DNA of 64,000 nucleotides. Origin: an uncultured Bacteroidales bacterium (lineage in GTDB: Bacteria; Bacteroidota; Bacteroidia; Bacteroidales; Muribaculaceae). Of this stretch, positions 16,012 to 26,509 are shown piece by piece. The notes under the pieces were generated by a model. The model did not search any database, was not told the origin of the DNA, and saw nothing but the letters and a program-made list of their open reading frames with translations. How positions within the stretch are numbered: the first letter of the stretch is position 1; each line of letters opens with the position of its first letter. A program made the position numbers and the translations under genes. Location of the stretch: positions 372,001 through 436,000 of the forward strand of contig CADCFN010000002.1 of the NCBI GenBank assembly GCA_902800715.1, in the 5' to 3' direction.

Positions 16012-16019
16012 TTTTCCTT

Positions 16020-16098
16020 TAGTCCCTAGTCCCTAGTTTTTAGTAAGCGGAAGCCAACCAGAAACTAGGGACTAGAAACTAGGGACTAGAAACTAAAA
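16020..16098 (+). repeat. Heptad repeat element between C1 peptidase and ridA
   Basis: After the stop codon come heptads AGTCCCT, AGTCCCT, AGTTTTT, AGTAAGC. Then, after 14 nt, come AACTAGG, GACTAGA, AACTAGG, GACTAGA and AACTAAA (16063-16097). The arms are complementary and can form a long hairpin. The same design occurs at 32935-33013 and, with a less clear left arm, before umuC at 60558-60582. Confidence 0.8.
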
Positions 16099-16713: not shown

Positions 16714-19700
16714 TCAATACTCGCCGTCCTCGGCAGCCATACCCACGTCATTGCTCTCGGGATACATCGTCGGTTTCGGCTGGTTGCGCAGGTTCAGGTA
16801 CATCGCCTTCGCCATCTCGCCCATCACGCGCTTATAGAACTGCTCGTCCTGGAACAGCTTCGAGAACGCGTCCATCTGCTCGACATAGCACTCCTGTGCC
16901 ACCTCACCGAAGGCTTTCGGGAAGATGGCTTCGGCAAACATGTTTGCATCGCTGTTCTCAGCCTGCTTTTTCAGCACCTTGCTGTTCTTGCTCATGCGGT
17001 CAAAGATAGTTTCCACAATCACGCGGTCGGCATCGGTGAAGTTGCCGGCATACATCATGTTGATTTTGGCGATGATGTTCGTCAGCAGGTCACGTTTCTC
17101 CTCGGGTTTGTTTCCCTTGCCGCCTTTCTCGGGCTTCAACGTCTTGTCATCGGGCTTGGGAGCCAGAGTGATGGTGCCCGAGAAGCCCGTGGAGTATTTG
17201 TTGTTGATGAGCGCCAGTTTGCCCGTCAGGTCCACTTTCTCGTGCGGATTCTTGGGCAGGAACTTATACAGGTACTCGGCGAACACATAGGTCTTCAACA
17301 ACTCTTTGTCAAAGGTGCGCACAATCTGCGCCATGTAGGCATAGAAGCGGATGAAGTTCTTCACCAGGCTACGCACCTCGAAGCGGTTCTCCTCGGTTAG
17401 GGTATCAAAGGCCTTCAACACAGGCGTATAGACGCTCGCCAGCTTGCCCATGTCGTCCTTGCCTTCCTGCTTGGCGCTGTACAGCGCCCACACCTTCTCC
17501 TCGTCCTGAGGCGCCCACAGGTGGTAGTTGTACAACTCGGTCTGGTACTTATACACGATGTTCACATCGACGGCCTCGCCCAGCAGCGTGTCTTCATAGA
17601 AAGGCTGGAACGACGCCTTGATGTCTTCGGCACTGTTGGCAAAGTCGAGCACAAAGGTGTCCACCTTGTCGCGGTGGGCTCGGTTGAGCCTCGACAGCGT
17701 CTGCACGGCTTTCACGCCTCGCAGCCCCTTGTCCACAATCATCGTGTGCAGACGCGGCTGGTCAAAGCCCGTCTGGTACTTCTCGGCGACGATGAGCACG
17801 TTATACAGGTCGCTGTCGAAGTACAGCGGCAACCGCGCCTCGCTGATGGCATACTCGGGGGTGGAGTTCAGCTTGCTCTCCACATAGTCGGTCCCTTGAT
17901 AGGTCACCGTGCCCGAGAATGCCACCAGCGGCATGACGTCGGTATAGCCCTTGCTCTTGCAGTATTCCTTCACGGCAAAGAAGTAGCGCACGGCATGGGC
18001 ACGCGAGGCGGTGACAATCATCGCCTTGGCCTTGCCGCCCATCTTGGTCAGCGTCACGCTGCGGATGGTCTCGACCATGATTTCGGCCTTCTGGGCAATC
18101 ACGTGCTCGTGGTTGTCGTGATAGCGCTTGATGGCGGTCGTTGCGGGCGGCTCGTCATATTCTGGGTCCTCCTTGACGCTCTTGGCAATCTCATAGGCGG
18201 TCTCCAGGGTGGTGTAGTTCTTCAACACGTCCATGATGAAGCCCTCGTCGATGGCCTGGCGCATGCTGTAGTGGTGGAAGGCGTCAAAGGTGCCGTCCGC
18301 CCGTGGCACGCCGAAGGTCTGCAGCGTCTTGGGCTTGGGCGTTGCGGTGAAGGCATAGAAGTACAGGTTGGGCTGCTGCCCCTGGGTGAGCAGCGTTTCT
18401 GTCATCAGGTCCATCTCGTCCTTGATTTCCTGCTCGGTCTTCTCCTCCAGCTCTGCCATCTCGCGCAGCGCCTCGTCGGTGTCGGCAAGGGCGGCCTTGA
18501 GCTTCTCGGCGCTCTTGCCGCTCTGCGAGCTGTGCGCCTCGTCAACGATGATGGCAAACCGCTTGCCCGAGTGGCTGTCCAGTTCCTTGTAGATGAGCGG
18601 GAAACGGTGCAGCGTGGTGATGATGATGCGCTTGCCGTCGTTGATGGCGTCCTTGAGTTTGCTGGAGTTGTCCTTGTCGGTGATGGTCTCGATTTGCCCC
18701 TCCAGGTGCTCAAACCCCAAGATGGTGTTCTGCAGCTGGGCATTGAGCACACGGCGGTCGGTGACGACAAACACGGTCCTGAACTTCTCCTCGTCGTGCT
18801 GGTCATGCAGCGAGGCGAGGCGGTAAGTCAGCCAGGCAATGCTGTTGCTCTTGCCCGAGCCGGCACTGTGCTGAATCAGGTAGTTCTTGCCGCGGTCGGC
18901 AAGGCGCGTGTCGTCAACAAGTTTCTCCACCACGTCGAGCTGGTGGTAGCGCGGGAAGATGAGGCGCGTGCTGCTGCGCTTCATCTGTTTGCCGTTCACG
19001 AGCGAGATGCTCTCCTCGGTCAGGCGCGTGATGTAGCGTTGCAGCAGCGACAGCAGCATCGGGCGGCACAGCACATGCTCCCACAGGTAGGACGTCGGGT
19101 AGCCCTCGTCGTTGGCGGGGTTACCGCCGTCGCCGATGTTGCCCGCACCGTTGCTGCCCTGGTTGAAAGGCAGGAAGAAGGTGTCCTCGCCCCTGAGCTG
19201 CGTGGTCATCGCCACCTCCTGCAGGTCGACGGCAAAGCACACCAGCACGCGGTTGTCGAACTGGAACAGCGGCTCCTTCGCATCGCGGTCATACATGAAC
19301 TGCCGCTTGGCGTTCTCCACGCTCTGCCCCGTCAACTGGTTCTTCAGTTCCAGTGCCACGACGGGGATGCCGTTCAGCGACAGCACCATGTCGATGGTGT
19401 TGTGGTTCTGCAGGGAGTAGGCAAACTGGCGCGTACACGTCAGGATGTTGGCGTCATATTTCTTCACCAGCTCCTCGTTGATGTCGCTAGCAGGCTTGAA
19501 GTAGCAGAACTTGAGTGTCATGCCCCTGTCCTTGATGCCGTTGCGCAGCACGTGCAGCAGGCCGAAGTTGCTCACGTTCTGTTGGAACACCTTGTAGAGC
19601 TGTGCCTCGCTCTGCGCGCCATAGACGTTCTGGTACTTCAGCCACATCTTGGGCTGGGTGGCTTCCAGGAACTGCATGAGCACCGCCATATCGATGGCGC

Positions 19701-19800
19701 GCCCCTTGTCATAGGTCGCCTGGTCACCTTTCACATACCCGCCTTCACTCAACAGGTAATGCTCAATGTCAGCCTCAAAGTTCTTCTCCTTCGTCTCCAT
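16714..19800 (-). CDS. hsdR: Type I restriction endonuclease subunit R
   Basis: The 1028-residue protein has the standard HsdR order. An N-terminal PD-(D/E)xK nuclease with VALELKN (near residue 150) comes first. Superfamily 2 translocase motifs follow: Walker A SAGSGKS (near 310), DEAH box VDEAH (near 418) and FTATPKP. The later helicase motifs (EKYQTGFDQPRLHTM, LSRLNR) precede a helical C-terminal region with a Gly/Lys-rich linker near 890. It pulls unmodified DNA through the complex and cuts at a distance. It is separated from hsdM/hsdS by two unrelated genes and 134 nt of intergenic sequence, and is GC-richer than they are. Confidence 0.95.
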   Translation of the reverse strand: METKEKNFEADIEHYLLSEGGYVKGDQATYDKGRAIDMAVLMQFLEATQPKMWLKYQNVYGAQSEAQLYKVFQQNVSNFGLLHVLRNGIKDRGMTLKFCYFKPASDINEELVKKYDANILTCTRQFAYSLQNHNTIDMVLSLNGIPVVALELKNQLTGQSVENAKRQFMYDRDAKEPLFQFDNRVLVCFAVDLQEVAMTTQLRGEDTFFLPFNQGSNGAGNIGDGGNPANDEGYPTSYLWEHVLCRPMLLSLLQRYITRLTEESISLVNGKQMKRSSTRLIFPRYHQLDVVEKLVDDTRLADRGKNYLIQHSAGSGKSNSIAWLTYRLASLHDQHDEEKFRTVFVVTDRRVLNAQLQNTILGFEHLEGQIETITDKDNSSKLKDAINDGKRIIITTLHRFPLIYKELDSHSGKRFAIIVDEAHSSQSGKSAEKLKAALADTDEALREMAELEEKTEQEIKDEMDLMTETLLTQGQQPNLYFYAFTATPKPKTLQTFGVPRADGTFDAFHHYSMRQAIDEGFIMDVLKNYTTLETAYEIAKSVKEDPEYDEPPATTAIKRYHDNHEHVIAQKAEIMVETIRSVTLTKMGGKAKAMIVTASRAHAVRYFFAVKEYCKSKGYTDVMPLVAFSGTVTYQGTDYVESKLNSTPEYAISEARLPLYFDSDLYNVLIVAEKYQTGFDQPRLHTMIVDKGLRGVKAVQTLSRLNRAHRDKVDTFVLDFANSAEDIKASFQPFYEDTLLGEAVDVNIVYKYQTELYNYHLWAPQDEEKVWALYSAKQEGKDDMGKLASVYTPVLKAFDTLTEENRFEVRSLVKNFIRFYAYMAQIVRTFDKELLKTYVFAEYLYKFLPKNPHEKVDLTGKLALINNKYSTGFSGTITLAPKPDDKTLKPEKGGKGNKPEEKRDLLTNIIAKINMMYAGNFTDADRVIVETIFDRMSKNSKVLKKQAENSDANMFAEAIFPKAFGEVAQECYVEQMDAFSKLFQDEQFYKRVMGEMAKAMYLNLRNQPKPTMYPESNDVGMAAEDGEY

Positions 19801-19808
19801 ATTCTTAA

Positions 19809-19837
19809 AACTACGAATTACACCAATTTAACTAATT
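19809..19837 (+). repeat. Left copy of a 29-bp inverted repeat in the defence island
   Basis: AACTACGAATTACACCAATT followed by TAACTAATT. The minus strand of 23429-23457 is identical at 26 of 29 positions. The remainder of the 134-bp gap 19801-19934 has a further related motif (CAATTACACGAAT, about 19867-19880) but no gene. Confidence 0.65.
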
Positions 19838-19934
19838 CTTGGCATCCGCCACTCTTATTTAATTCCAATTACACGAATAACACCATGCCTCTTCCGTCCG
19901 CTTTGTCCATGTATTACGAGCCTTTGGCTCGTAA

Positions 19935-21452
19935 TCAGATATAAACAGCATATTTAACAATATCGCCAAGTGTTTTGCCCCTCTTGCCCTCAATGATATT
20001 AATCAAATAAGGATTTATATTATCACTTTTATTAATTATCCTTTCATTAGGAATTGCATGATCTTTTTCGATCTCTTGGGTAGAACTAATGACGTCATTC
20101 TCGTTAATAATTTTGGGATAATCTGGCATTATCAAATGCTGAACATCCTGCGTGCTAATACATTTATTATTAAAATATAGCATCTCGCAGATTTTCATGA
20201 TAGTGGATTGGAGTTTTGATTCCAAAGTTCCTTTTATTGCATTCGGCTTGTCCAGCAAATCATTAGCCCACGACGGGACAATAACTATATTCCATAAATT
20301 AGTAAAATAGCGAGGGTCAAATGCCCGTCCCCATACATGGGAAATCCTATAATTCTGGAAAATATTTTCTTTGCCCGCACTGACAGTATAACCTGTTATT
20401 TCATTTATCACAGAACGGACTTTGGCATTACCATCATTATCACGAATAATTGGATAATTCTCTAATTTTTCACCTTCTTTGACAAAGGTACTACTTGTCT
20501 CAGTAAATAAATAATACCTAATTTTTTTCTTTTTCTTATTGCCTTCATCAGGCTCACCATTGCCATCTTGACTATCGTCATCATTGAGTTCCTCCGTTAT
20601 GTTGTCCTGTTGTTTCTTCTCTTTCTCTTTCTCTTTCTTTTCTTTTCTTTTCCTGGATAATTGATCATCATCTATTGTTTGTTTATATGTTCCAGTTCCC
20701 GACTCATCCATTGTTGAAAACCTTGCAAATAGGTCATATTTCTTACCCATAAAACCGTCTTCAGTATGTTGAGCTTGAAAAGTCTTAACAATCTTATCCA
20801 TTCTATTTTTAGCGACATCAGGTTCAAAGAAATAGCATTGGTCAATAGCGTATTTTATAAAAGTATCGGTGCCAATTTCTCTTGTAAGAGCAGTAACTCC
20901 ATCAATCTTATAGATTAATTCTTTGTTGATTTTCTTGCGAACTCCATCAAGTTTTTTATCAAGTTTAGTGTCTTCATTTCTCCTGACATTTTGGAACAGG
21001 TCAGCATCATGTTCAATATTATATCTTAACTCATCAAGTTTTGAAATGAAATCCTGCAGAACGCCTTTATTATCTTCTTCAATTCTTATTATGGCTTTTT
21101 CTGCAACTCGCTTCATGATATCAGTGATAGTTAAGGCATAGAGAACATCCCCCGCGTTAAGGAATTCAGCAATCAGCTCTAGATAATCATATTCATTATT
21201 TTGTTTTCTTTTTGAATTATCATCATTTATGGGATTTATGGTTTTTCTGTAATACTGGCATAGATAGTGATTAACCTTGCTGCAATCTGGCCATTGTTTA
21301 CCATCAGTAGTCTCTTGGTATTTGCCACTTTTGCCTTTTGTATCCCATTTAACAAGAGGTTCTTTGATTAAATGAAGCAATGAAGTTTTACCGAAGGTGT
21401 TAATAACATTCTTTTTTATAAACTGATTATCTTGTATTTCAAATCGTTCCAT
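19935..21452 (-). CDS. Unknown protein inside type I R-M locus, possible HNH-like C-terminus
   Basis: I do not recognise this 505-residue protein. Visible parts: an N-terminal region with GKTSLLHLIKEPLVKWD (not a P-loop); a helical middle (about 90-235) rich in Lys/Glu/Asp; and a low-complexity KEKEKEKKQQ then acidic DDDSQDGNGEPDEG linker (about 262-305). A C-terminal domain follows with YRISHVWGRAFDPRYF and LWNIVIVPSWANDLLDK. The His and the following Asn-rich strand are reminiscent of a beta-beta-alpha-metal (HNH-type) nuclease, but the match is weak. It is markedly AT-rich compared with hsdR and hsdM. It lies 73 nt after the DUF262/DUF1524 gene and 134 nt before hsdR. A defence role is inferred from context only. 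Confidence 0.7.
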   Translation of the reverse strand: MERFEIQDNQFIKKNVINTFGKTSLLHLIKEPLVKWDTKGKSGKYQETTDGKQWPDCSKVNHYLCQYYRKTINPINDDNSKRKQNNEYDYLELIAEFLNAGDVLYALTITDIMKRVAEKAIIRIEEDNKGVLQDFISKLDELRYNIEHDADLFQNVRRNEDTKLDKKLDGVRKKINKELIYKIDGVTALTREIGTDTFIKYAIDQCYFFEPDVAKNRMDKIVKTFQAQHTEDGFMGKKYDLFARFSTMDESGTGTYKQTIDDDQLSRKRKEKKEKEKEKKQQDNITEELNDDDSQDGNGEPDEGNKKKKKIRYYLFTETSSTFVKEGEKLENYPIIRDNDGNAKVRSVINEITGYTVSAGKENIFQNYRISHVWGRAFDPRYFTNLWNIVIVPSWANDLLDKPNAIKGTLESKLQSTIMKICEMLYFNNKCISTQDVQHLIMPDYPKIINENDVISSTQEIEKDHAIPNERIINKSDNINPYLINIIEGKRGKTLGDIVKYAVYI

Positions 21453-21480
21453 ATTGTATTGATTTATAATTTGTTATTTT

Positions 21481-21499
21481 GTTTAATTCGTGGAATTAG
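21481..21499 (-). repeat. Partial copy of the island intergenic repeat
   Basis: GTTTAATTCGTGGAATTAG on the plus strand shares GTTTAATTCGTG and AATT with the element at 23429-23457, in the same orientation. It lies in the 73-bp gap between the unknown gene and the DUF262/DUF1524 gene. Confidence 0.5.
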
Positions 21500-21525
21500 C
21501 GTTAAGCCTACAGGGGGACTTATCG

Positions 21526-23385
21526 TCACGGAATTTTCGGGAAACTGATATTCGTCGGCTTTTGTTCCCATGGGAATAAAAACTTATCAATCGCTTCTTT
21601 TACCAGCGCCACTGTTCGTCTCTTGATATTATCTTTATTCCATTTTTTTGCTTTTACAATATCATCATTGTTGATAATCCCATTTCTATAGCCGATAAAA
21701 TTGCCATGAGCATCGATGTGATTCTTTTTTGTGTTGAAGCTCTTGTTGCCCAGGCTGCTGTTATAGCCGGTCAAGGTCAAGTTGCCGAGGCGATGGACAT
21801 AGTCTTTCTGGATTATCTTTGCTTCAGCAACCTTGGTTTTATTTCCGGTCATCATTACAATCCATTCTTCTGGGATATTATCGCCTTCTGGGAACACATG
21901 CTCAATCGTCCAGATATAATTACCTTTTTTGTCACGGTCCCACAGGTCTTTTACGATTTTTTTAGCAAATCCGTTTTCAGCAAGTTTGCATAGGACAAAC
22001 CTGGTGGCATCTCGGTTTTCATCATAGATTTTCCCCATCAGAGCTTCAATAAACCTGTTGATATCGGCCGATACTGAAGCCAACTCATTCTTTATCAACT
22101 CATAGACTTTTTGACGTTGGGGTGCTTGAGTTTCAATATCGTTGATAATGCCCATGAACATTCTGTCCAATTCACGGGTATTGGGAGTGTCTGTCAGATT
22201 GCGTCTGATAAAGAATTTTACCAGCAGTTCGATAATGTCAACAATTGTCTTATCATTCAAATTTAAAGTTTTCTGCTTCTTGACAAGGTAAAGCAGAAGC
22301 ATATAGCTCGGCGCGGCTTGAACATGTTGCAGATCAAGCAATGGAACTTGCCACTTCTGGATTGTGCATTTCTCGGGCAGAATCAGTTGTTGATAGATTT
22401 TAGCACTATCAGTTATCTCATTCAAGAAATCAGTCACACTCTTTTCAATGAGTACCTCATAGATCTTCAACAAATTTGAACGGGTGGCAATACTTACCTT
22501 CGATAGATTATTGATCTTGGGATAGTGCTTTCTGATGTCGGTAATAAACGCATTATAGTGATGGCGGAAAAAGCGTTCCTGGACTTTGTAGTTGTCCGAT
22601 GAATCATCATCTGACAACAGTTCCAGTATATATTTCCATCTGCCATCATTGGCAATGATGTCTCCATTATTTTTATCTGTTTCAGACATCATTTTGTTCT
22701 TCATCAGTTCAATGGCAGTCAATGGTACACCTCGGTTGTTCAAGGACTCGAACAGCATGTAGGCATCATAATGGTTCTTGGCTTCAATCTTTACCAGCTC
22801 TGCCGCTTGCACTTTATCATAGACTTCCTTTAACTTTTTCTCTTTATTTTTGGGCTTGCAACTAGCCAAATCGTCTTCAATCAGCTTGGAAAGGACTTTT
22901 ACTGCTCTGCCTATCCTTCGATTACCGTAATATAGAGGTTCTGTTAGTTGATGTTGAAGCAGACTAAATATAGCATAATTAAAGTCCACATCATTATTAT
23001 TCTGACACTGAGGAACCAGAATCAATTGATTAATAGGATTGTTTGGGTTACGCAGTGAATCTTTGATATTGTTAAGGACGTTGACGCTTCTCTTGGTGGC
23101 CTTTGGTAATTGACTTATTTTATCATACAACACTCCCAGCATCAGGCACAGCGTGGTCAGTCGTTGTTGACCGTCAATCACTTCACGCACTTGACTGGGA
23201 GATGTGATAAAGATGATGGGACCAATAAACAAACCTTTGTCATTTTCGACAAGGTCATTATACAATTCGGTGATTTGGTTTTTACCCCAAATGTATTCAC
23301 GCTGATACTTGGGAATTTGATAGTAAAAACCAGGATTCTGCTGTATCAAATCCTTGACCTTAACAGGAGCTGCCTTTATTTTCAT
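21526..23385 (-). CDS. GmrSD-like DUF262/DUF1524 nuclease
   Basis: A 619-residue single-chain protein. The N-terminal DUF262 (ParB-like NTPase) domain has YQREYIWG (about 28-34) and the signature DGQQRLTT (71-78). The C-terminal DUF1524 HNH-type nuclease has TIEHVFP (near 492-498) and HRLGNLTLTGYNSSLGN with a trailing Lys-rich helix (about 535-560). This is the fused architecture of GmrSD-type, NTP-dependent type IV enzymes that cut modified phage DNA. It follows hsdS by 95 nt. Homologues often sit within type I R-M loci, where they may attack phages that evade the host system by modification; the target modification is unknown. Confidence 0.9.
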   Translation of the reverse strand: MKIKAAPVKVKDLIQQNPGFYYQIPKYQREYIWGKNQITELYNDLVENDKGLFIGPIIFITSPSQVREVIDGQQRLTTLCLMLGVLYDKISQLPKATKRSVNVLNNIKDSLRNPNNPINQLILVPQCQNNNDVDFNYAIFSLLQHQLTEPLYYGNRRIGRAVKVLSKLIEDDLASCKPKNKEKKLKEVYDKVQAAELVKIEAKNHYDAYMLFESLNNRGVPLTAIELMKNKMMSETDKNNGDIIANDGRWKYILELLSDDDSSDNYKVQERFFRHHYNAFITDIRKHYPKINNLSKVSIATRSNLLKIYEVLIEKSVTDFLNEITDSAKIYQQLILPEKCTIQKWQVPLLDLQHVQAAPSYMLLLYLVKKQKTLNLNDKTIVDIIELLVKFFIRRNLTDTPNTRELDRMFMGIINDIETQAPQRQKVYELIKNELASVSADINRFIEALMGKIYDENRDATRFVLCKLAENGFAKKIVKDLWDRDKKGNYIWTIEHVFPEGDNIPEEWIVMMTGNKTKVAEAKIIQKDYVHRLGNLTLTGYNSSLGNKSFNTKKNHIDAHGNFIGYRNGIINNDDIVKAKKWNKDNIKRRTVALVKEAIDKFLFPWEQKPTNISFPKIP

Positions 23386-23428: not shown

Positions 23429-23457
23429 AATTAGTTTAATTCGTGAAATTCGTAGTT
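23429..23457 (-). repeat. Right copy of the 29-bp inverted repeat
   Basis: Reads AACTACGAATTTCACGAATT then AAACTAATT on the minus strand, inverted relative to 19809-19837 with three differences. Together they bracket exactly the DUF262/DUF1524 gene and the unknown gene. Confidence 0.65.
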
Positions 23458-23480
23458 TATTGAAATACGTAGTTAGGGGT

Positions 23481-24674
23481 TTATTTTTTGCCTGTGACGT
23501 ATTCGTAGATGAGGGATTTTTTGTATTGTTTTAAATCCTCAATCTTTTGCTGCTTGAGGGCTATCAGGGCGTCAATGTCGGCACATTTGCGGTCCAAAAA
23601 AACCGCTATCTCCCGCTGCTCCGAGAGTGGAGGCAACACCAATATTTGCCTTTTAATTCTATCAATAGCAAGTCCTGGCTGTGCTGCTGAAAGAGAGTAT
23701 TGATTGAGATTCATTGACTCCAACATGTAAGCAAACCAAGAAGTATTGAAATCATGTTTTGGGTAGCAAATCACAGCATGTTCTGTTACCCAAAATTTTT
23801 CTCTTGTTACTTTAATATTTCCACATAATGCACCTTGCCGCCCAATAAGAACATATCTGCCATCAAGCAAATAATCCTTGTAGTACCCTCTTATTCCATT
23901 TCCGCCATATACTGGATATAATTCTACATTATCAGTTATATCTTCCGTTTTTAAGCTATTCCCGCTCTGCAACATTGCAAGCGCATTGATTTGGCAGATT
24001 CCCCAGTGGGTGGGGATTTGGCCTATCCAGTCGATGTTGGTGGGCTTCATGGGGGCTGTGGGGTTAAGGCCCTTGGTGACGGCCTCGGTGATGACCGATT
24101 GCTTATAGGCTTTTAACTCCTCTATCACCTGCTCTTGCAAAGACACCATCTCGTCCACCTCACCACATTTCCTGTCGATTATTTCAGCGATTGCTTTCTG
24201 TTCTTCAATAGGAGGAAGGAGAAAGTCTAATTCTGATATCTTGTTCCACTTCAGGTCACAACTTCTTTCTCTAATGCCAGTTGAAAGAGCCAAGAAAACA
24301 TTGTTATAAGCAAGGGTTCTCAAATAAAAAATGAGATACCTGGAATTATGGTTATTCTTAGGGGTGCAAACAACAAGGACTGGTGAACCTTTACCTGTAG
24401 ATTTGGAAACACCCATAGCACCAGCAAAGCCATCCATTCCATGAATCACAATATCACCTTCGTTTATGCCTTGATAACCAATCTCTTTATCCGACATTGT
24501 AAAGCCTTCTGTCCGTCGTAATGACCGTAAAATGACTTCTCCATCTCTGAAGCAGGTAATAACCTCATCATTATCCCTAACAGGTCTTTTTTTCAAATCA
24601 AGGACTCTCTTTCCCCTTTCGATTATCCAATTATCTGGTACATAAGGAGCCCATGGTATGTTGGTCTTTTTCAT
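23481..24674 (-). CDS. hsdS: Type I restriction specificity subunit S
   Basis: The 397-residue product has two target-recognition domains, each followed by a conserved helix: LPPIEEQKAIAEIIDRKCGE (about 155-175) and LPPLSEQREIAVFLDRKCAD (about 350-370). The central spacer carries PTNIDWIGQIPTHW, typical of S subunits. It binds the split DNA target and holds two M subunits. It begins 2 nt after hsdM ends, so the two are co-translated. No second or inverted hsdS fragment is present, so phase variation by inversion is not evident here. Confidence 0.94.
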   Translation of the reverse strand: MKKTNIPWAPYVPDNWIIERGKRVLDLKKRPVRDNDEVITCFRDGEVILRSLRRTEGFTMSDKEIGYQGINEGDIVIHGMDGFAGAMGVSKSTGKGSPVLVVCTPKNNHNSRYLIFYLRTLAYNNVFLALSTGIRERSCDLKWNKISELDFLLPPIEEQKAIAEIIDRKCGEVDEMVSLQEQVIEELKAYKQSVITEAVTKGLNPTAPMKPTNIDWIGQIPTHWGICQINALAMLQSGNSLKTEDITDNVELYPVYGGNGIRGYYKDYLLDGRYVLIGRQGALCGNIKVTREKFWVTEHAVICYPKHDFNTSWFAYMLESMNLNQYSLSAAQPGLAIDRIKRQILVLPPLSEQREIAVFLDRKCADIDALIALKQQKIEDLKQYKKSLIYEYVTGKK

Positions 24675-24676
24675 CG

Positions 24677-26443
24677 TTATCGTCCCAAGATTTTAGCAAT
24701 TAATTCCTGTTCCTGTTGCTCCAACTGCTGCAGGTGGGCAAAGATGTCCTCGCTCTTGCGTGGGGCGACATACTTGTAGAACTCGCGGGTAAAGGGGATT
24801 TCATAGCCCACCTTGCTCTTTTTCTCGTCAATCCAGGCGTCGGGGTTATAGGGCAGCACGTTGCGCGCCATGTAGTCGTCGATGTCCTGTTTGCAGGGGA
24901 TGACCTCGGTATCACGCTTGGCGGTGTCGGGCTGCGGCTTGCCGCGCTTGAGCGCCGGGGTGCCGTCGGGGTTATAGAGGGGCGTCTCGACCACGACCTT
25001 GGTGAACTTGAAGTCCTCGTTGTCCTTGAGGCGCGCCTCGACGGTGAGGTCGCCGTCGGTATAGACGCCGTCGGCAAAGGCGCTGTAGGCGCGCGTTATC
25101 AGGTCGATACAGGCGTCGGTAAACTCGTTGCGCTTGTTGCCCAGCGACTTGCGCCGCTTCTCGAAGCACTTGCTGGCATCGATGAGCAGCACCTTGCCCA
25201 TGCGCTCGGGCGCCTTGTCCTTGGTGACGAGCCACACATAGGTGGCGATGCCGGTGTTATAGAACAGGTCGTTGGGCATCTGCACAATCGCCTCGAGCCA
25301 GTCGTTCTCGAGCAGATAGCCGCGGATGTTGCTCTCGCCGCTGCCCGCGTCGCCCTTGAACAGCGGGGAGCCGTTCTGGATAATCGCCATGCGGCCCGTG
25401 TCCTTGAGCTTGGCGATGCCGTTGAGCATGAACAGCTGCTGGCTGTCGCCGATGGCGGGCAAGCCCGGGGCAAAGCGCCCCGCCTCGCCCAGCTTGTGCT
25501 CGGCCTCGACGGCTGCCTTCTCGTTCTTCCACTCGATGCCGAAGGGCGGGTTGCTGATGATGTAGTCGAAGGTGAAACCGCCGAACTTGTCGTCGCTCAG
25601 GGTGTTGCCCTTCTTCATGTTCTCGGCATTGCCGCCCTTGATGAGCATGTTGGCCTTGGCGATGGCATAGGTCTGGGCGTTCAGTTCCTGGCCGAACTCG
25701 GTGATGTGGGCGTCGGGGTCTATCTCGATGAGTTTCTCGCTCAGGCAGTCCAGCATCTGGCTCGTGCCCATCGCCATGTCATAGATGGTGGTCGTCACGC
25801 CCTCGCGGCGCATCTGCTCACGGTCGGGGGCGACGAGCAACTCTGCCATCAGATAGATGATGTCGCGCGCTGTGAAGTGGGCTCCGGCATGCTCGTCGTA
25901 GCTCTCGCTGAACTTCCTCACCAGTTCCTCAAAGATGTAGCCCATGTCCACCGCGGTGACGGCATCCAAGCCCATGTAGGCTTTCTTGCTGCTGAACTCC
26001 TGCACCACGTTATAGAGCACGCCGTTGTCGTCCATCTTGGAAATCTCCTTGTCGAAGTCGAAATTCTCGATGATGTCGATGACGTTCGCCGAGAAGTGGT
26101 TCAGGTAGCTGCGCAGGTTGTCGGCGATGTTCTCGGCATCGCCCAGCAGGCCCTCGAGGGTGAAACGGCTCGTGTTATAGAAATCATAGCCCGACGCCTT
26201 CTTCAGGAAACCGTCCTTGACGATGATGCCGCGCTCGTCGAGCTGGGCATTCATGTCGAGCACCGCCTGCTTGGTAGCGGCAAGCACATCGTTAAAACGC
26301 TTGATGACACACATGGGCAAGATTACGTTGCCGTACTCGTGCGGCTTGTATACGCCCACAATCTTATCGGCAATCGCCCATATCAGGTTAGCCTTCTCCT
26401 GCACATTGACTGCAGTCTGCTTGGCGAGTTCTTCGGTTGACAT
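24677..26443 (-). CDS. hsdM: Type I restriction DNA methyltransferase subunit M
   Basis: A 588-residue N6-adenine methyltransferase. It has the N-terminal helical HsdM domain (about 10-160), AdoMet motif I as YDMAMGTSQMLD (about 222-233) and catalytic motif IV NPPFGIEW (near 297-304). A region with CEKRRK-like basic helices and a C-terminal contact segment with S follow. Motif I deviates from the usual DPxCGxGG form, although MGTSQM versions exist in a recognisable HsdM subfamily. It methylates the host target with HsdS and, with HsdR, forms the restriction complex. First gene of the island, with promoter 26478-26509. Confidence 0.94.
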   Translation of the reverse strand: MSTEELAKQTAVNVQEKANLIWAIADKIVGVYKPHEYGNVILPMCVIKRFNDVLAATKQAVLDMNAQLDERGIIVKDGFLKKASGYDFYNTSRFTLEGLLGDAENIADNLRSYLNHFSANVIDIIENFDFDKEISKMDDNGVLYNVVQEFSSKKAYMGLDAVTAVDMGYIFEELVRKFSESYDEHAGAHFTARDIIYLMAELLVAPDREQMRREGVTTTIYDMAMGTSQMLDCLSEKLIEIDPDAHITEFGQELNAQTYAIAKANMLIKGGNAENMKKGNTLSDDKFGGFTFDYIISNPPFGIEWKNEKAAVEAEHKLGEAGRFAPGLPAIGDSQQLFMLNGIAKLKDTGRMAIIQNGSPLFKGDAGSGESNIRGYLLENDWLEAIVQMPNDLFYNTGIATYVWLVTKDKAPERMGKVLLIDASKCFEKRRKSLGNKRNEFTDACIDLITRAYSAFADGVYTDGDLTVEARLKDNEDFKFTKVVVETPLYNPDGTPALKRGKPQPDTAKRDTEVIPCKQDIDDYMARNVLPYNPDAWIDEKKSKVGYEIPFTREFYKYVAPRKSEDIFAHLQQLEQQEQELIAKILGR

Positions 26444-26477: not shown

Positions 26478-26509
26478 CAAAGTTAATGAAAAATATCCAT
26501 CTAGCCAAA
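26478..26509 (-). promoter_or_regulatory. Promoter of the hsd island
   Basis: Minus-strand TTTG (26509-26506), a 20-bp spacer and TAACTTTG (26485-26478) match the Bacteroidota consensus; the ATG of hsdM is about 35 nt downstream. The gap 26444-26774 otherwise holds the dyad at 26550-26589 and no credible gene. Confidence 0.75.

Follow-up and report, generated by a model that had tools for sequence, protein, structure and literature searches.

A five-gene restriction operon lies within the 64,000-nucleotide stretch analysed here (hereafter, the window), which spans positions 372,001 to 436,000 of contig CADCFN010000002.1 from an uncultured Bacteroidales bacterium of the Muribaculaceae. Its open reading frames (ORFs), taken from a list of longest non-overlapping ORFs, are all on the minus strand. 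As the original prediction stated, hsdM and hsdS, the methyltransferase and specificity genes of a type I restriction–modification system, are coupled at a distance of 2 nt, and the restriction gene hsdR is separated from them by two ORFs, a GmrSD-like gene with DUF262 and DUF1524 domains and a gene that we call orfX; Pfam confirms all of these assignments except orfX. Comparison with related genomes leads us to read the hsdS–hsdR junction, with a probability of about 0.85, as a slot where accessory genes, mostly of defence type, are inserted and exchanged; in this genome it contains the GmrSD-like gene and orfX.

The type I gene set is complete: Pfam and PADLOC find hsdM, hsdS, and hsdR with the expected domains in one operon, and the matches to the NCBIfam hsdR and hsdM models are below the model cut-offs. 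The GmrSD-like protein joins an N-terminal DUF262 and a C-terminal DUF1524 domain in one chain, both above the Pfam cut-off, and its best PADLOC model is HEC-06 (E-value 4e-58). It carries IDGQQR at residue 70, IEHVFP at 494, HRLGNLTL at 531, and NSSLGNKSF at 542; the published GmrSD motifs are (I/V)DGQQR and HNH, as given in the relevant passage of PMC4619093, and in the HNH-type motif of this protein, which spans residues 494–550, E-H replaces the published D-H. Family and motifs support a predicted modification-dependent endonuclease, and to that extent, which is that of sequence alone, we agree with the earlier proposal that an enzyme directed against modified DNA stands beside the type I system. 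The two-gene module had also been described as more AT-rich than its surroundings. This is true in comparison with hsdM and hsdR, where GC content at third codon positions is 0.86 in both genes against 0.45 in the GmrSD-like gene and 0.30 in orfX, but not in comparison with hsdS (0.42). Because the AT-rich block already starts in hsdS, composition does not mark out the module.

To describe the junction across the genus, we searched 101 genomes with HsdM (E-value ≤1e-60) and recovered eight loci in seven genomes, the window's own included, all of which were read. Type I systems of the genus outside this set, such as that of genome G011, are excluded from the count of eight; many of the relatives are draft assemblies, and neighbours were searched by BLAST with the proteins of this operon, which may miss distant hsd genes. 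Four loci have closely related hsd genes, and they show four different states of the slot. The window holds the GmrSD-like gene and orfX. Genome G036, whose HsdM and HsdR are 99% identical to those of the window, has a NOV_C gene, a gene for a 191-aa protein, and an orfX homologue that is 38–44% identical to the window's orfX over two aligned parts. G034 (HsdM 81%, HsdR 72% identical) has a single ApeA-type HEPN gene, and in G372 (HsdM 86%, HsdR 84% identical) the slot is empty, the hsdS and hsdR ORFs being 6 nt apart. The remaining four loci are more distant (HsdM about 37–42% identical): the slots of G016 and G024:C9 are empty, that of G024:C17 contains RhuM, and that of G261 contains RmuC, with a GmrSD gene after hsdR. 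In all, the slot is occupied in five of the eight loci. Congeners with related hsd genes that are either empty or differently filled support a variable slot at the hsdS–hsdR junction. The proposal of an exchangeable cassette is borne out in this respect: instead of the same five genes in every relative, we found empty, ApeA, and NOV_C alleles, so that among the close relatives this one position is unfilled in one genome and carries very dissimilar inserts in two others.

Several points weigh against the slot reading, among them the internal promoter matches and the hairpin described below. Closely related hsd genes were found in four genomes only. RhuM and RmuC, which occupy two of the slots, and the 191-aa protein of G036 are not established defence genes, and it is GmrSD and ApeA alone among the cargoes whose families would point to defence. 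A second genome with the pair of GmrSD-like gene and orfX was not found, and the two could be chance neighbours. Finally, the functions proposed for these genes are predictions from their sequences.

Table 1. Features of the operon and of its flanking repeat (window coordinates).
Feature	Position	Strand	Description
hsdM	24677-26443	-	Type I methyltransferase subunit; HsdM_N and N6_Mtase above Pfam cut-off; NPPF motif
hsdS	23481-24674	-	Specificity subunit; Methylase_S above Pfam cut-off
GmrSD-like gene	21526-23385	-	DUF262 and DUF1524; Pfam GmrSD_N E 5e-33, GmrSD_C E 5e-16
orfX	19935-21452	-	Product of 505 aa from an undescribed family, with a conserved domain at the C terminus
hsdR	16714-19800	-	Restriction subunit; HSDR_N and SWI2_SNF2 above Pfam cut-off; Walker A, DEAH
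hsdR-side arm	19808-19837		Dispersed-repeat copy; present in G036 too
hsdS-side arm	23429-23458		Dispersed-repeat copy; missing at the corresponding place in G036
Promoter match	26478-26509	-	Bacteroidetes-type, by a presumed consensus; 34 nt upstream of hsdM

A separate observation comes from another family of the same order, where the hsdS–hsdR gap of locus L040 (G046:C141, 3199–4931) is occupied by a PDDEXK_3 gene together with one whose match to an IS200-like transposase is below threshold.

The module is bracketed by an inverted repeat, originally given as 29 bp with 26 identities and found by us as 30 nt with 27 identities (90%), which had been taken for the boundary of the cassette. The 20-nt core of the arms matches twice in the window against a mean of 0.00 in 100 shuffles, so the repeat is not due to chance within the window. 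It is, nonetheless, not confined to the module. Allowing up to three mismatches, the core has 42 matches in the organism's own genome, compared with 2 for the reversed control, and at up to two mismatches it is found in 24 of 41 genomes of the genus. Among 20 repeat stretches picked by hand from the 42 matches and read, 11 have two inverted arms within about 100 nt, forming short palindromes, while two have inverted arms 190 and 525 nt apart, one has direct copies, and six have a single arm. The inverted repeat is a dispersed, often palindromic genome repeat and not a cassette boundary. The related loci agree: G036 keeps the hsdR-side arm with 3 mismatches, its alignable flank stops just past that arm, and it lacks the hsdS-side arm; no arm was found at up to five mismatches in the slot of G034 or in the whole 18-kb stretch of G372. 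Because the ApeA and empty alleles are without arms and G036 has one, the arms are not required for the cassette; we regard the repeat around the module as incidental or, at the very most, as helpful to recombination. Downstream of the operon lies a second palindromic repeat (16018–16097; 27-nt arms, 89% identity), flanked by what we take to be a C1-type peptidase-like gene and a RidA-like gene.

Were the repeat instead the border of a mobile element carrying GmrSD and orfX, either transposon-like or a palindrome with cargo in its loop, the close fit of two such similar arms around the module would be explained. Of the 14 neighbouring pairs of core matches up to 5 kb apart in the organism's own genome, 12 are arranged (−,+) and 2 are (+,+); in favour of an element, all four adjacent arm pairs 150 bp to 5 kb apart are (−,+). 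One of these four is the module itself, and another, at L095 in the organism's own genome (G000:C4:188401-189400, 61–605), has inverted arms 525 nt apart around a PDDEXK_3 gene, presumably of the GxxExxY type. A palindromic repeat, however, is expected to give the (−,+) order anyway, and the abundance of the core in the genome, largely as short palindromes in the stretches read, speaks against an element border. So do the other cargo of G036, with the hsdR-side arm only, and the armless slots of G034 and G372. The ORF list and Pfam reveal no transposase ORF in the module, and its flanking sequence contains no direct repeat outside the arms (a target-site duplication), all of which makes a mobile element very improbable. 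To the idea that the inverted 30-nt arms turn the segment into an invertible switch we give almost no credence, given that the five genes share one strand, the arms are dispersed, and there is no recombinase in the module.

Under the slot reading, homologous recombination between flanking sequences would be a more plausible route for swapping cargo than the action of a transposase on the inverted repeat, although this step is less secure than the slot itself. On the hsdR side, the DNA of the window and of G036 is 95.7% and 96.5% identical, up to position 19849. On the other side, the first part and the 3′ end of hsdS are common to both genomes and the middle, about 23634–24001, is replaced; exchange therefore extends into hsdS or occurred more than once. 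One joint would then lie in or at the end of hsdS and the other at the dispersed repeat beside hsdR, whose copy there may have supplied the homology.

The arrangement is known in kind, as a GmrSD between hsdS and hsdR has already been published (RloF, TgvAB). According to the relevant passages of the cited reports, type I genes are the most frequent defence neighbours of GmrSD (PMC4619093), and RloF of Campylobacter jejuni is, like the gene described here, a DUF262 gene between hsdS and hsdR (PMC4619093, PMC11411939); it belongs to another phylum, however, and those passages mention no orfX. TgvAB, from Vibrio pathogenicity island 2 (VPI-2) of Vibrio cholerae, acts against Tevenvirinae and lies within a type I operon; it resembles our locus in having GmrSD-family genes in such an operon, two extra genes, and a five-gene cluster, but both Tgv proteins carry DUF262 and both are needed, whereas our locus combines the two domains in a single chain and has an unrelated second gene (PMC11411939). 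In enteropathogenic Escherichia coli, another defence system, DarTG2, likewise lies between hsdS and hsdR, at a site named as a potential recombination hotspot, although the cargo there is a toxin–antitoxin system (PMC12255303). PrrC, too, is described as embedded in a type I operon (PMC3874165).

Relatives of the GmrSD-like protein are few, with 2 of 101 genus genomes at E-value ≤1e-20 and 2 of 395 phylum-sample genomes at E-value ≤1e-30, the window's own included in both counts. The closest that we found, in G742 (43% identity) and on the Pseudomonas veronii plasmid LT599585 (37%), are also inside methylation-based systems, but they are embedded in bacteriophage exclusion (BREX) loci, between pglX and pglZ, and not in a type I operon. 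In G742 (L127, G742:C11, 10974–12769), a gene pair whose first member matches PDC-M07A accompanies GmrSD between these two genes. G011 has a 28% identical GmrSD directly after hsdS, in another type I system that is cut by the contig end; this protein (L128, G011:C23, 8787–10871) has an extra C-terminal DUF5655/PDC-S18 domain, and its gene is followed by a 161-aa ORF, also cut by the contig end.

None of four family libraries (Pfam, PADLOC, NCBIfam, and PHROGs) matches the product of orfX with confidence: PADLOC and NCBIfam give nothing at E-value ≤0.1, and the sole Pfam match, to DUF1319 (E-value 0.041), is sub-threshold. A pattern scan of a species-genome collection yielded 18 orfX loci from 58 candidate stretches, with 15 of the 18 labelled Prevotella, Prevotellaceae, Bacteroidaceae, or Bacteroidales, one Kiritimatiellae, and one a proteobacterium. 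Among whole genomes, the gene occurs in 8 of 101 from the genus, two of these matches being weak, in 16 of 297 sampled from the family, where several are weak, and in 2 of 295 sampled from the order; each count includes the window's genome. It was not found in phage and plasmid records, and the 106 pattern-matching stretches in viral contigs included no relatives. These results define a small family, mostly of Bacteroidales, that is undescribed as judged by the family libraries, no literature search on orfX having been made. Three of the loci (L047, L050, and L116) are on contigs of about 4 kb, and four pairs of entries (L051/G154, L052/G015, L054/G036, and L061/G011) are not independent.

Genes of the hsd type adjoin orfX in 2 of 19 loci, the window and G036, and GmrSD lies beside it in the window only; five further loci that we read add neither. 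Elsewhere, copies are scattered and single, with mostly non-defence neighbours. Recurrent neighbours are a WYL regulator (two loci), a gene for a protein of about 313 aa (three), DUF2779 genes (four), and a convergent AAA gene (four). The 313-aa gene precedes orfX in L051, L052, and L061, in two of these behind a WYL-domain regulator; it matches no Pfam or PADLOC family, and one DUF2779 gene has no PADLOC match. PADLOC, applied to 10 hand-picked proteins from six orfX loci, identified a type IIG enzyme, a methyltransferase, and PDC-S06 in L056 (Prevotella pallens), a PifA-like nucleoside triphosphatase (NTPase) in L058, and a weak PDC-S26 match in L059, which suggests a defence setting, though from picked neighbours without a control.

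The original prediction offered orfX as a new partner for the GmrSD-like enzyme. A two-protein system like TgvA and TgvB would suit genes that are adjacent on the same strand and 73 nt apart, and TgvAB requires both of its proteins (PMC11411939, in the passage on that system). Yet Pfam finds no DUF262 in orfX, its profile shows no similarity to that of GmrSD, and the single GmrSD-like chain already has both domains. Since, among the loci read, GmrSD stands beside orfX only in the window, and the orfX homologue of G036 is without one, orfX is probably not a dedicated GmrSD partner, and we consider a joint system unlikely.

The best conserved part of orfX is its C-terminal domain, in which D338, N342, H372, W374, G375, D379, P380, W387, N388, P393, N397, and D401 are invariant in an alignment of 19 sequences. 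The AlphaFold2 model of the protein has a mean predicted local distance difference test score (pLDDT) of 69.4, with block means of 80–94 for residues 341–460. In the model, H372 ends a strand (368–372), N388 lies just before the next (389–393), and N397 is in the helix that follows (394–400); a separate model of the domain shows these elements again (mean pLDDT 70.8). In an HNH-type finger, two strands are followed by a helix; a His closes the first strand, and Asn residues lie at the second strand and in the helix, an arrangement that the modelled layout resembles.

Searches with the fold and the sequence are less encouraging. The whole model gave 78 fold matches, none at E-value ≤0.001, and the C-terminal domain six (best E-value 0.55; chains listed without the matched region), namely three Cas9 chains, one retron-Ec78 effector chain, and two unrelated ones. 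The PtuB model matches 1 of 19 family members (L063, E-value 0.002), but in other members the scores of the CARF and Csm4 models come close to this. Moreover, the match, at residues 305–365, starts 16 residues past the His, at the motif Asn; because it omits the His, its support for the HNH reading is limited to the second half. HNH_4 reaches an E-value of 0.16 in one of the 19, where unrelated families score better, no known HNH profile matches any of the 19 significantly, and searches of PDB sequences with both orfX profiles returned nothing convincing. With every HNH test weak or negative, a nuclease role for orfX is an unproven lead.

It is possible, if rather doubtful, that orfX represents a previously unrecognised family of HNH-like defence nucleases of gut and rumen Bacteroidales, and that it acts alone and is a plug-in gene with changing slot partners (GmrSD here, NOV_C in the sister species), elsewhere found alone, sometimes behind a WYL regulator or near defence genes. 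That it is a non-defence passenger that settles at exchange-prone, AT-rich places is a serious possibility, though short of probable: the scattered single copies, the rarity of hsd linkage, and the poor HNH results all fit, whereas the strong conservation of the C-terminal motif, the presence of orfX inside the restriction operon of two species with different partners, and, with the reservation made above about picked neighbours, the WYL regulators, the type IIG/PDC-S06 cluster, and the PifA-like NTPase near other copies do not.

The five genes are likely co-transcribed. By what we take to be the Bacteroidetes promoter consensus, the match upstream of hsdM (Table 1) is the only strict one between 16700 and 26510, and the window contains 6 such matches against 1.0 expected. 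Two observations point the other way. Sigma-70-type matches within the AT-rich genes of the region number 31 against a shuffle mean of 13.9, an excess that is common in AT-rich sequence, and just after the stop codon of orfX there is a perfect 9-bp hairpin (19914–19934) that lacks a T-run. With these internal matches and the hairpin, a single transcript is not certain.

Taken at the level of their families, HsdMSR would cut foreign DNA lacking the host methylation, and GmrSD would sense modified bases through its DUF262 NTPase domain and cut through its DUF1524 (HNH) domain, such that unmodified and modified phage DNA would both be covered. Less firmly, all five genes would be transcribed together from upstream of hsdM, and orfX would be a defence gene in its own right, perhaps of nuclease type. 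That a single restriction operon occurs in one genus both empty and with three different cargoes makes the published idea of an exchange site for defence genes between hsdS and hsdR directly testable. The new piece is orfX, a well conserved, undescribed family that is now singled out for tests of phage protection and nuclease activity.

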